This document shows, one piece after another, positions 5,466 through 33,167 of a stretch of DNA of 64,000 bases. Position 1 is the stretch's first letter. Each line of letters starts with the position of its first letter. A program made the translations under genes and the position numbers. Origin of the DNA: Seleniivibrio woodruffii (GTDB lineage: Bacteria; Chrysiogenota; Deferribacteres; Deferribacterales; Geovibrionaceae); the NCBI RefSeq assembly GCF_029267515.1, contig NZ_JAJUIS010000003.1, positions 186,001 to 250,000 of the forward strand. The letters run 5' to 3'. Below the pieces are notes generated by a model, which did not search any database, was not told where the DNA came from, and saw only the letters and a list, made by a program, of their open reading frames with translations.

Positions 5466-6151
5466 TGGGAAGTGCAGGCGCACCGCTCATTGAGCTTAAA
5501 GGTGTGACGAAGGTATACGGCATGGGGCTTTCAGAGATGCACGCGCTGCGTGGCATCGATCTGACCATCGAAAGCGGCGATTTCGTCGCGGTGATGGGTC
5601 CCAGCGGTTCCGGAAAATCCACCTGTATGAACATTCTCGGCTGTCTGGACACACCGACGGCAGGTTCCTATAAATTCGCCGGGCTGGAGGTGCGCGGACT
5701 GGAGAGAGACCAGCTCGCGAGACTTCGCAGAAACTACATCGGCTTTGTATTTCAGGGGTTTAACCTGTTGAGCCGTACCAGTGCGCTGGAAAACGTGGAA
5801 CTGCCGCTGCTTTACAGAGGTGTTTCGTCTGCGGAGAGAAAAGAGGCGGCTATGAAGGCGCTGAATCTTGTTGGACTCACAGGCTGGGAGAAGCACAACC
5901 CGAATGAACTTTCCGGCGGTCAGCAGCAGCGGGTTGCCATCGCCAGAGCCATAGTTACACATCCTTCGGTGCTTTTTGCGGACGAACCCACGGGAAACCT
6001 TGATTCGGCGCGGAGCATTGAGATAATGGAGCTTCTGACTCAGCTTAATAAAGAGAACGGCATCACCGTTGTAATGGTCACACACGAACCGGACATGGCG
6101 GAGTATGCGAAACGCTCCGTACATTTCAGAGACGGGCTGGTGGTTTCATGA
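5465..6151 (+). CDS. MacB-like ABC transporter ATPase
   Basis: About 228 residues, a stand-alone ATPase of the LolD/MacB class. Walker A is GPSGSGKS near residue 43. The Q-loop is in VFQGFNLL, the ABC signature is LSGGQQQR, Walker B plus D-loop is VLFADEPTGNLD, and a switch histidine lies in VTHEPDM. The frame also allows a GTG at 5462, but the ATG at 5465, which shares its A with the preceding TGA, is the simpler start. It powers the FtsX-type permease encoded next. In MacB these two parts are one polypeptide; here they are separate, as is common outside gamma-proteobacteria. Confidence 0.94.
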   Translation: MGSAGAPLIELKGVTKVYGMGLSEMHALRGIDLTIESGDFVAVMGPSGSGKSTCMNILGCLDTPTAGSYKFAGLEVRGLERDQLARLRRNYIGFVFQGFNLLSRTSALENVELPLLYRGVSSAERKEAAMKALNLVGLTGWEKHNPNELSGGQQQRVAIARAIVTHPSVLFADEPTGNLDSARSIEIMELLTQLNKENGITVVMVTHEPDMAEYAKRSVHFRDGLVVS

Positions 6152-29065: not shown

Positions 29066-29190
29066 TTCGGCGGCTATATGCGGCGCATTACTGCGTCAGT
29101 GTCTCCTCGAAACTGCTCACATACTCCGTATGTATGCTCGCAGCCCGCTCGTCGTCACTTCCTTGTACTGCTTGCATCTAACCGCCGAAC
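29065..29190. repeat. MITE-like inverted-repeat element A
   Basis: About 126 bp bounded by GTTCGGCGG (29065-29073) and CCGCCGAAC (29182-29190), a perfect 9-bp terminal inverted repeat that continues imperfectly inward (CTATATGC versus GCATCTA). Its middle holds a second palindrome, CTGCTCACATAC...GTATGTATGCTCGCAG. The left end includes the last base of the platform-protein stop codon. It has no coding capacity. It resembles the non-autonomous palindromic repeats scattered in gaps of many genomes. Confidence 0.7.
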
Positions 29191-29467: not shown

Positions 29468-30289
29468 ATGTTCCGTCTTATTACACTTATAACCGCATCA
29501 ATTGTTATCTGCTCGTGCACCTTTACTTATGAAGTGCCATATCAGGATGTATCCGCATCAAAACTTCCTGCTGCGCACGTGATGCAGAAAATGAACATAA
29601 AGGCGGCTTATCTGCCTATGGATGAAAATAACCCTTCTCAAAAGCTCGAAGACAACGGTTCCGGTGTTAAGCAGCTCATGATAATGCCTATTGCCAAACA
29701 GATAAACAAATCAGCAAAGGATATTCTGCCGCAGTATTTCACAGAAACGGCTGTTCTGGAGTCTGCAAAGTCCGACAAAGGACTGATAATCTCCGTTGAA
29801 CTTCAGGATTTCGATTTTAATACCACAGTCAGGGGATTTAATACATGCGGCGTGACGCCTAAACTGAACCTCCGTATACACTTCATGGACAGCGGCGGAC
29901 GGGAACTTTACCGCTCCGACACTGTTTCGTCCATAGACCATGTGGAATACAGCTGCACAAGCACAAAAGAGGCGCAGGAGGTCTGGAACGCCCGATTATA
30001 CGCAGCAGCGGGTGACGCTTTCATAAAGTCGCTGGACAGTATGCTTAACTCGTATGCCGTTAATAACTATCTCCGCGGTCAGTCTCAGGAGAAAGCCCCT
30101 GAACCATCTCCATACGTTCCCGACGGAGCAACGGAAAAGGAGAGGCTGCGCGCCGCATTTGAGCATGGATACATAGATTCCGCCCAGCTTACAAAAGCAA
30201 TCGGCGAGCTTGGCGGTGACAGGTCAAAACTTCTGGAATCATTCCTGAACGGTAAGATAGACGCGAAAAAATTCGGAGAGCTGTACTGA
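29468..30289 (+). CDS. Lipoprotein sharing N- and C-terminal domains with the adjacent caspase-like lipoprotein
   Basis: 273 residues. Lipobox VICSC (Cys about 17) follows a hydrophobic signal. Residues about 30-200 form an alpha/beta domain resembling YajG-type lipoproteins (LIISVELQDFDFN, PKLNLRIHFMDSGGRELYRSD). The last 50 residues (KERLRAAFEHGYIDSAQLTK to NGKIDAKKFGELY) closely match the C-terminus of the next protein, and the N-terminal domains correspond as well (IQDFSFEG, INLGVKVTVTDKNRMTIWE). It therefore looks like a paralogue lacking the inserted PDZ and protease-like domains. It shares one base with the next gene. Function is unknown. Confidence 0.85.
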   Translation: MFRLITLITASIVICSCTFTYEVPYQDVSASKLPAAHVMQKMNIKAAYLPMDENNPSQKLEDNGSGVKQLMIMPIAKQINKSAKDILPQYFTETAVLESAKSDKGLIISVELQDFDFNTTVRGFNTCGVTPKLNLRIHFMDSGGRELYRSDTVSSIDHVEYSCTSTKEAQEVWNARLYAAAGDAFIKSLDSMLNSYAVNNYLRGQSQEKAPEPSPYVPDGATEKERLRAAFEHGYIDSAQLTKAIGELGGDRSKLLESFLNGKIDAKKFGELY

Positions 30290-32355
30290 TGAAATCGATT
30301 AAATATTTCTTAATATTGTCAATGCTTATAATGGTCGGCTGTGCGAGCCGGATCGACATCCCCATGGTGGAAAACACGACGGTGATACCTGACAGGGTGA
30401 ACATGGTAAACATGCGGGTGGGTATCGTGCTGCCCGATGAAAATCTGGTTAAGTCCTATGTCATAGGCAGCGCCACAGAGAATATACCCGCCGGAAAACA
30501 TCTTAGGATTATGGAGAAAAAGTATTTTCCGGTTGCGTTCACATCGGCTGTGGCGGCTGTGCCGGGCAGTTTTCCTGATAACGTGGATGCGCTGATATCT
30601 GCCGACATTCAGGACTTTTCATTCGAAGGAGTACAGGTTGCCGCAGGATTCGGAATGAAATACCGAATTAACCTCGGCGTGAAGGTCACTGTTACCGATA
30701 AAAACCGTATGACCATCTGGGAGACCACAGCCAGAAGCGTGAAAGAGAGCAGGTCGGTGGTATCTCCGGTCATTCCGTATAAAACACTTATGGCGGAGGC
30801 ACTCTCCGCCGCCATGGACGACTGCTTTAAAAAACTGAACGAAGAGATAGCCCTTTCCGGCGAGCTTCAGGCATACGCGGCAAATCTCAGGAAACAGCCC
30901 GCTGTTGCCGCTGCTCCGGTTCGTCAGACATATGCCGCGCCTGTGCAGACGGCACAGCCTGTACAGACTGCACAGGCTGCACAGCAGAGCGGAGCATATC
31001 TGGGAGTTAACATACAGGCTTTAAGCACTGAAAAACAGCTTATGATAACAAGGATAGTAGCGTCCAATGCGCGGTTCAGAGCCGGTCTGTCAGGTGTTGA
31101 GGTTGTCGGTGTTTTGCCGAACAGCCCCGCGGAGACCGTGGGTATCCATACTGGCGACATAATAGCGGAAGTGAACGGAACGGCTGTCACGTCAGCAGAA
31201 TCGTTCGTATCGTTCATCGGGTCGCAGTCCCCTGCTGCCAAAATAACTCTATACGTTATCCGCGGTACACGCCCTTCCTATTTTGACGTGGTGCTCGGCT
31301 CAACTGCTGACGCGGGTAAACCTGCACAGCAGACCTATTCATCGGTTCCTGCTCCTGCCGCCGAACCCCAGCCTGCCGAAAACGAACTGCCGCCTTACAG
31401 AGAGGACGCATACGCTGTGGTTATCGGTATCGACTATAAAGGGCGAAGCGACATACCCGCGCTGAAATACGCCTCTTCGGATGCGCAGGAAGTATATAAC
31501 ATACTGACAGACAGAAGATACGGGGGCATCCCGAAAGAGAATGCCGTGCTTCTGCTGAACGAGAACGCCACGCGCAACAACATCGTAGCCGCACTCAGAA
31601 AGATAAAAACGTGGGACGGATACATGTATGTCTATTTCTCCGGTCACGGCGCTCCTGTAACATCCGGCGAAAAGGTTACGGATGCCCTTATAGTTCCCTA
31701 CGACAGCGTTCTTTCCGATCCCGATTCGCTGTCTGATACTGCGGTCAGGGTCAGCTACATAGAGGATATGGTGGACTCGTCAAACGCGAAGGGTGTTCTG
31801 GTGGCTCTGGACGCATGTTTCACGGGCAGCGGAAAATCCATCGTAGCCAAGGGCGGCAAGCCCATAGTGGGCATGATGGCTGCTCCGGACATCATAAAGA
31901 CAGTCGGTTCCGGCAGGGTGATAATAACCTCATCGGCTGCAAATCAGCAGTCGTGGGAGGATGACAGCGAATACAAATCCGGTCTGTTCAGCCACTTCTT
32001 TAAGGAAGGACTCACAGGCAAGGGCGGAAACGGCGTATGGGTGACCATTAACGACATATCTGAATACATAAAAAACAACGTTGCCAAGGCGGCTTTCAGA
32101 CTTAAAGGTCAGCAGCAGGATCCGCAGGTGATAGGAACAGGCGATTTCACAGTCAGCCGCAACTGGGAAAAATCCAGACTGATGGATGAGGAGACAGGGA
32201 AAAATAAACTGAAAGCGCTCTTTGAAAAGGGGCTTATTAACTCCGCACAGCTTTCCAAAGGCTTGGATGAGCTGAAAAAACCTGTGAAATCCAAACTTAT
32301 GGACGCCTTTCTGAAAGGAAAGGTCGACGACAAGAGTTTCGGGGAACTTTACTGA
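30289..32355 (+). CDS. Lipoprotein with PDZ and caspase-like (C14) domains
   Basis: 688 residues. Lipobox MVGC (Cys about 18) is followed by a YajG-like domain to about residue 200 and an Ala/Gln/Pro linker. A PDZ domain spans about 238-345 (VVGVLPNSPAETVGIHTGDIIAEVNG) and another Pro-rich linker follows. The caspase/metacaspase-like domain spans about 375-625, with the likely dyad His453 in YFSGHGAP and Cys510 in LDACFTGSG. The opening YAVVIGIDYKG and RVIITSSAANQQSWE are also typical. A 50-residue C-terminal module matches the previous protein. The lipobox and PDZ place the protease domain in the periplasm or at the cell surface. Substrate and activator are unknown. Confidence 0.9.
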   Translation: MKSIKYFLILSMLIMVGCASRIDIPMVENTTVIPDRVNMVNMRVGIVLPDENLVKSYVIGSATENIPAGKHLRIMEKKYFPVAFTSAVAAVPGSFPDNVDALISADIQDFSFEGVQVAAGFGMKYRINLGVKVTVTDKNRMTIWETTARSVKESRSVVSPVIPYKTLMAEALSAAMDDCFKKLNEEIALSGELQAYAANLRKQPAVAAAPVRQTYAAPVQTAQPVQTAQAAQQSGAYLGVNIQALSTEKQLMITRIVASNARFRAGLSGVEVVGVLPNSPAETVGIHTGDIIAEVNGTAVTSAESFVSFIGSQSPAAKITLYVIRGTRPSYFDVVLGSTADAGKPAQQTYSSVPAPAAEPQPAENELPPYREDAYAVVIGIDYKGRSDIPALKYASSDAQEVYNILTDRRYGGIPKENAVLLLNENATRNNIVAALRKIKTWDGYMYVYFSGHGAPVTSGEKVTDALIVPYDSVLSDPDSLSDTAVRVSYIEDMVDSSNAKGVLVALDACFTGSGKSIVAKGGKPIVGMMAAPDIIKTVGSGRVIITSSAANQQSWEDDSEYKSGLFSHFFKEGLTGKGGNGVWVTINDISEYIKNNVAKAAFRLKGQQQDPQVIGTGDFTVSRNWEKSRLMDEETGKNKLKALFEKGLINSAQLSKGLDELKKPVKSKLMDAFLKGKVDDKSFGELY

Positions 32356-33167
32356 TGAAAAGATTTCTCTTTCTCATACTGCTTTTTGCGGCGCTTTCCG
32401 CCAACTGTGCTGAAAATCCAGTAACAGTGGAGGCGGAGGGTGTTTCTGTTATGGGTGATTCCGACACCATGAAAGAGACAGTCATGCGCGCCCTGAACGA
32501 TGCCCGCAGGAACGCCATTGAGACAGCGTGCGGGATATTCATAAAATCCAGAACTCTGGTGTATAACAGCCAGCTTGCCGAAGACCTCGTATATGCGTCC
32601 GTGAAGGGGCGTATACTGAAATATAACATTATTTCACAGGGATTTGCGCAGGGAAGCAACAGCGAATACTCGGTAAGTATAAGAGCTGTGGTGGAACCTT
32701 ATCAGCCGGAAAAGACAAGCGGTCTGTCCGTTGATCTTGCCATGTCGAGGGCGCAGGTTAAGCAGGGGGATACTGTCAGCATAAGCTACAGGGTAACGGA
32801 GGACGCCTACGTCTATCTGTTCTCCATAGCCTCAGACGGTTCTGTAACGCTGCTTCTGCCGAACAGTGTTCAGAGGAGCAACTTTGCACAGAAGGACAAA
32901 ACCTACGTCTATCCCGACAGCGAATGTAAAATTGTTCTTACGGCACAGTTCCTTCCGGGATTCAAAGGTAAATCCGCCGAGGAGAAGATAAAAATAATCG
33001 CCACAAGGCAGAAGGACGACCTTCTTACCCTTGGATTTCAGGAGGGGATGTTTATAACCTACAGCGCCTCTTCAACAGGTATGATAAGCGATCTCGTCCG
33101 CAGACTGAACAGGCTGGACCCGTCCGACTGGGCGGACGACACCGTGACCTATACCATTGTCAGGTGA
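32355..33167 (+). CDS. Exported DUF4384-type protein of the caspase-like operon
   Basis: 270 residues with a signal peptide ending near LSANCA; a lipobox is possible but weak. Residues 25-115 resemble the LPP20/FlgT-N fold (ALNDARRNAIETACGIFIKS). The second half carries the DUF4384 pattern (VKQGDTVSISYRVTEDAYVYLFSIASDGSVTLLLPN). DUF4384 and caspase domains are known to occur together, sometimes in one polypeptide, so this third gene probably acts with the caspase-like lipoprotein. Its start shares a base with the preceding stop. Its own stop abuts the convergent ccdA stop with no gap. Confidence 0.85.
   Translation: MKRFLFLILLFAALSANCAENPVTVEAEGVSVMGDSDTMKETVMRALNDARRNAIETACGIFIKSRTLVYNSQLAEDLVYASVKGRILKYNIISQGFAQGSNSEYSVSIRAVVEPYQPEKTSGLSVDLAMSRAQVKQGDTVSISYRVTEDAYVYLFSIASDGSVTLLLPNSVQRSNFAQKDKTYVYPDSECKIVLTAQFLPGFKGKSAEEKIKIIATRQKDDLLTLGFQEGMFITYSASSTGMISDLVRRLNRLDPSDWADDTVTYTIVR

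Follow-up and report, generated by a model that had tools for sequence, protein, structure and literature searches.

Caspase homologues of bacteria have mostly been discussed as cytosolic enzymes of death and defence, and for most of them neither location nor partner is known. In a 2012 survey, 529 of 671 prokaryotic caspase homologues came without localisation information, and many were encoded in operons (PMC3501461). Fusions of a caspase to DUF4384 have already been reported (PMC6426788, PMC7475262). As for the better characterised proteins to which the present locus can be compared, the residues of the S1 region in the metacaspase TbMCA2 include Asp95 and Asp211 (PMC4357240), and the rings of FlgP are built through a hairpin insert (PMC12222027). 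Here we describe an operon from Seleniivibrio woodruffii, found in a window of 64,000 nucleotides (contig NZ_JAJUIS010000003.1, positions 186,001 to 250,000), which encodes a lipoprotein with a PDZ and a caspase domain, a second lipoprotein without the caspase, and an exported DUF4384 protein.

Organisation and genomic site of the operon

The operon is located on the + strand and consists of gene A (29468-30289, 273 aa), gene B (30289-32355, 688 aa) and gene C (32355-33167, 270 aa). An earlier note on this DNA had read it as three genes, including a lipoprotein PDZ-caspase and a DUF4384 protein, joined by single-base overlaps; the ORF calls and the domain matches agree with this description, and the one-base stop/start overlap TGATG is found at both junctions (30287-30291 for A/B and 32353-32357 for B/C). 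Orthologous A-B-C operons are present in two of the four congeners examined (G003 and G004), and dN/dS against the nearest one, G003, is 0.11 for A and 0.08 for both B and C, which allowed us to consider all three as real genes. A scan for promoters and terminators returned signals no better than those of shuffled sequence.

The operon has been inserted between pilC and ccdA, and two congeners lack it. In G001, G002 and G007, pilC and ccdA adjoin with no operon between them. A functional link to pili or to cytochrome c maturation was rejected, since both flanks are present in genomes devoid of the operon; carriage by a phage or a plasmid was rejected as well, with zero phage matches and only remote plasmid matches. 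Upstream of the operon, at window positions 29066-29190, lies a dispersed repeat of about 120 bp; this intergenic stretch has 28 matches in the genome, about 14 of which are near the full repeat length at 76-89% identity, and fragments of the repeat also occur at the empty pilC-ccdA site of G001. In the same gap of this congener (L199:5911-6439), an apparent short antitoxin-type frame was read by eye on the minus strand.

B is a caspase of the metacaspase type

Lipoprotein calls were made by inspecting the lipobox by eye. That of B is at Cys18 (MVGC), with the cysteine conserved in the orthologues, and is followed by an N-domain, a PDZ domain (residues ~235-334, positions 30991-31290; PDZ_2, 2e-10, 238-334), the caspase domain (residues 375-614, positions 31411-32130; Peptidase_C14, 2.7e-11) and a C-terminal tail (residues 632-688, positions 32182-32352). 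Neither the N-domain of A nor that of B could be assigned to a known family. Among PDZ domains, that of B is most similar to those of DegP/DegQ/HtrA and keeps a carboxylate-loop-like motif, YLGV, at residues 237-240.

The catalytic motifs of B are SGH453G and DAC510F. His453 and Cys510, which the earlier note had described as intact, are both present in 67/67 relatives, and D398 and D508 are invariant in the same set. In the structure model of B (mean pLDDT 57) most of the caspase part reaches 70-90 and the N-domain stays below 50; the fold matches MALT1, the yeast and Candida metacaspases and GSU0716, and the sequence profile of the caspase matches Yca1, AtMC4, MALT1 and TbMCA2. D398 and D508 align with Yca1 positions and fill the motif positions that would correspond to Asp95 and Asp211 of TbMCA2, so that B is predicted to cut its substrates after Arg or Lys. 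As judged from its sequence, B is a metacaspase-type Peptidase C14, with the caspase fold, the SGHG and DxC dyad, and acidic S1 positions.

The same genome also encodes a second exported C14 caspase of 442 aa (L062:1390-2718; G000:C14 ~27267), with a FliP-like flagellar ORF directly upstream; caspase matches of similar length are found in congeners, including those lacking the operon.

Tail-bearing relatives carry exchangeable front modules

Species genomes were scanned, and the caspase and tail part was found, at 57-64% identity, in four MAGs: one from Nitrospirota and three assigned to 'Deltaproteobacteria', the latter labelled Myxococcota by the tree tool. With a search of these genomes, the distinct tail-bearing caspases amount to 13 in all. 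The tail-bearing caspases are monophyletic (100/100) across Deferribacterota, Nitrospirota and Myxococcota/'Deltaproteobacteria' MAGs; within Deferribacterota this clade was seen only in the genus studied here, and for this reason horizontal transfer, in either direction, is likely.

Inspection revealed lipoprotein starts in 11 of the 13 tail caspases, in the case of the protein at locus L031 through an upstream frame, and ordinary signal peptides in the other two. Ahead of the caspase, members of the clade have a lipoprotein N-domain, in some cases together with a PDZ, or else TPR, TPR and PDZ, or ankyrin, TPR and PDZ; by their domain architecture, these front modules are interchangeable, the PDZ being one among others. 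Lipoproteins with ankyrin repeats are common among the wider relatives, too. The Nitrospirota MAG, with 16 caspase-profile matches genome-wide, contains a tandem array of six caspases, each beginning with a lipobox-type sequence (L149:6009-17326), and at its locus L160 the genes for a lipoprotein, a caspase made as a lipoprotein and a DUF4384 protein follow each other in tight order, reproducing the layout of the A-B-C operon; the small lipoprotein at L160, unlike A, has no tail. At L031:5322-6969 the caspase gene is split over two overlapping frames near 5593-5642, by either a frameshift or an assembly error.

The DUF4384 protein is a conserved partner

The product of C has a signal peptide and no credible lipobox, and combines an N-terminal, putative FlgP-like domain of SHS2 type (residues ~23-110) with DUF4384 (135-219; 2e-18). 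The partnership was surveyed in 155 genomes of the class that includes L031, using a caspase profile at E<=1e-25 and looking for DUF4384 within 6 kb. Such a domain was found near 36 of the 70 caspase-profile loci, on the same strand in 36/36 and directly downstream in 17; in the reverse count, 28 DUF4384 genes had such a caspase at <=6 kb, where chance alone would give about 0.8. Moreover, DUF4384 occurs in 31/32 of the caspase genomes versus 78/155 overall (Fisher p 4e-10; the counts take no account of relatedness between genomes, and this exaggerates the significance of the co-occurrence without affecting its direction). All four genomes behind L030-L033 have DUF4384 genes; in the L030 genome, the gene most similar to C lies away from the tail caspases.

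The search for conserved synteny, suggested by the earlier note as a check, showed that the pairing of caspase and DUF4384 recurs in other phyla. The three-gene composition was only partly retained: the caspase and DUF4384 are conserved, A-like proteins were seen in this genus alone among the genomes searched, and the PDZ is exchangeable. C is, on the evidence of these neighbourhoods, a true, conserved partner of such caspases. Taken together, the invariant dyad, the purifying selection and the synteny in other phyla give good support to the view that B is exported and lipid-anchored, that its caspase is probably active, and that a DUF4384 protein is its conserved partner.

The N-terminal ~90 residues of C match the FlgP-type PDB structures 9hmf, 9yec and 8z5n over a helix and the following hairpin insert. 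The match is modest (wide alignment, 1e-5 for 9hmf and 0.0025 for 8z5n; narrow alignment, 0.003 and 0.13, respectively), and in the model of C the pLDDT of the hairpin region is <50; by analogy with FlgP, we infer that C may form rings. When the model of C was searched with Foldseek, the matches were weak and scattered over unrelated beta-sandwich proteins, and they were set aside.

Gene A and the common FGELY tail

The lipobox of A is at Cys17 (ICSC here, ISAC or AAAC in its two orthologues) and is followed by an N-domain (residues 18-205) and by a C-terminal tail (residues ~218-273, positions 30119-30286). The description of A and B as paired lipoproteins holds for their anchoring and falls short of their relationship, as the two proteins have the tail and remotely related N-domains in common: the tails are 54% identical over 56 aa and both end exactly in FGELY. 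The N-domain of A is closest to that of the L031 caspase (6e-10) and further from that of B (1e-5 to 7e-4), and the L031 caspase is the sister of the B caspase in the tree (support 82/97), so that A looks like an L031-type caspase minus the catalytic domain, i.e., a caspase paralogue that has no caspase domain. A regulatory or decoy role for A could be envisaged.

FGELY closes 16/16 tails (13 caspases and 3 A proteins), the tail-bearing caspases having been picked out by this very ending; a profile search with the whole caspase and tail alignment found no full-tail member with another ending. Against G003, dN/dS is 0.027 in the tail of B and 0.03 in that of A, compared to 0.025 in the caspase domain of B, which indicates that the constraint on the tail equals that on the catalytic domain. 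We rejected the idea that the tail is a SHOCT domain, since neither in A nor in B does it match a Pfam family above cut-off, and SHOCT at no level shown.

With E at -2 and an aromatic last residue, FGELY resembles a class III PDZ ligand. In a set of 31 proteins, all five PDZ caspases carry the tail and a PDZ is found in 0/19 of the tail-less ones (hypergeometric p ~0.005, calculated by hand and uncorrected for relatedness). These two observations make a contact between PDZ and tail worth testing; it could not be the only role of the tail, as several tail caspases have no PDZ.

Proposed function and alternative explanations

We tentatively suggest, at slightly less than even confidence, that the operon encodes a scaffolded, signal-gated and envelope-anchored protease module of the metacaspase type, specific for Arg/Lys. 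B, and with it A, would be held at the outer membrane, facing the periplasm, where C would oligomerise into a ring- or arc-like scaffold gathering the two lipoproteins. The exchangeable front module, here the N-domain and the HtrA-type PDZ, would sense or recruit a protein ligand, and clustering would turn on cleavage after Arg/Lys, with stress repair or death as conceivable outcomes. The common FGELY C-terminus would act as a docking signal, possibly as a ligand of the PDZ of B, and through this docking the caspase-less A would modulate B.

Among the alternatives, a DegS-like housekeeping quality control of the envelope, in which the PDZ binds the exposed C-termini of misfolded OMPs and thereby activates the caspase to degrade or to signal, with no death function, is unlikely, though the most probable of them. 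In its favour, the PDZ of B is nearest to those of DegP/DegQ/HtrA and keeps its YLGV motif; however, most relatives have TPR, ankyrin or other modules in place of a PDZ, and a housekeeping role fits poorly with an operon that is dispensable, being missing from two congeners.

We regard as improbable a gingipain-like role, in which B would process particular proteins, secreted or surface-bound, to their mature form by cutting at Arg/Lys. The envelope location and the basic P1 specificity, predicted from residue equivalence, would suit such an enzyme, but among the relatives whose surroundings were read there is no recurrent neighbour that could encode a substrate, and the neighbours pilB/pilC and ccdA/ccm are present also in genomes without the operon.

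About as improbable is defence or self-limitation, in which the module would kill or arrest the cell from the periplasm on sensing phage, predator or envelope damage. Caspase homologues do occur in cytosolic defence systems, and the patchy distribution, the insertion at one site, the swapping of modules and the tandem caspase arrays of the Nitrospirota MAG would all be in keeping with it. On the other hand, B is exported rather than cytosolic, PADLOC gives it only a generic caspase match, A and C match none of its models, as partner proteins of known caspase-bearing defence systems would, and the lack of phage matches and the remoteness of the plasmid ones speak against defence, too. Finally, although pseudo-orthocaspases exist in bacteria (PMC6426788), a non-catalytic scaffold role of the caspase domain is very improbable, given the dyad and S1 acids invariant in 67/67 relatives and the low dN/dS of this domain.

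Returning to the scaffolded protease module, we consider it rather doubtful, yet worth stating, that it exemplifies a widespread unrecognised class of lipid-anchored outer-envelope caspases with swappable sensors, a FlgP-like/DUF4384 ring, FGELY docking and a caspase-less sibling as regulator; if true, this class would be the periplasmic counterpart of scaffold-activated caspases. The locus thereby draws attention to extracytoplasmic proteases of a kind that has been little studied. An exported, lipid-anchored family that keeps a constant partner gene, and whose C-terminal pentapeptide does not vary, offers handles, namely C510, FGELY and the predicted oligomerisation of C, for studying the role of caspases beyond the cytoplasm and the way in which they become activated in that setting.

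Comparison with known systems

The earlier note could name no described system of this composition. This stands for the architecture, as no PDZ caspase or lipoprotein caspase was found described in the open-access literature searched, and not for the caspase-DUF4384 association, which is not new: in cyanobacterial and alphaproteobacterial proteins the caspase is likewise tied to DUF4384, but as a fusion, whereas here DUF4384 belongs to a separate product, C, which also has the putative FlgP-like domain. With the metacaspases and orthocaspases (C14; Yca1, AtMC4, TbMCA2 and the bacterial GSU0716, PDB 3bij) B has in common the caspase fold, the His/Cys dyad and the acidic S1 positions; unlike them, it is lipid-anchored and exported, with exchangeable front modules and the conserved FGELY C-terminus. 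HtrA and DegS-DegP are, as B, envelope proteases with a PDZ, but in these a trypsin-like protease precedes the PDZ, whereas B has a C14 caspase and the order PDZ-protease, and does not belong to the HtrA/Deg family. As for FlgP, Lpp20 and FlgT, which are outer-membrane-associated proteins of SHS2-type fold, with FlgP and FlgT forming rings, the N-domain of C aligns with a helix and a hairpin insert that would follow it in C as well; C differs from them by its DUF4384, by having no credible lipobox, and by caspase rather than flagellar neighbours.
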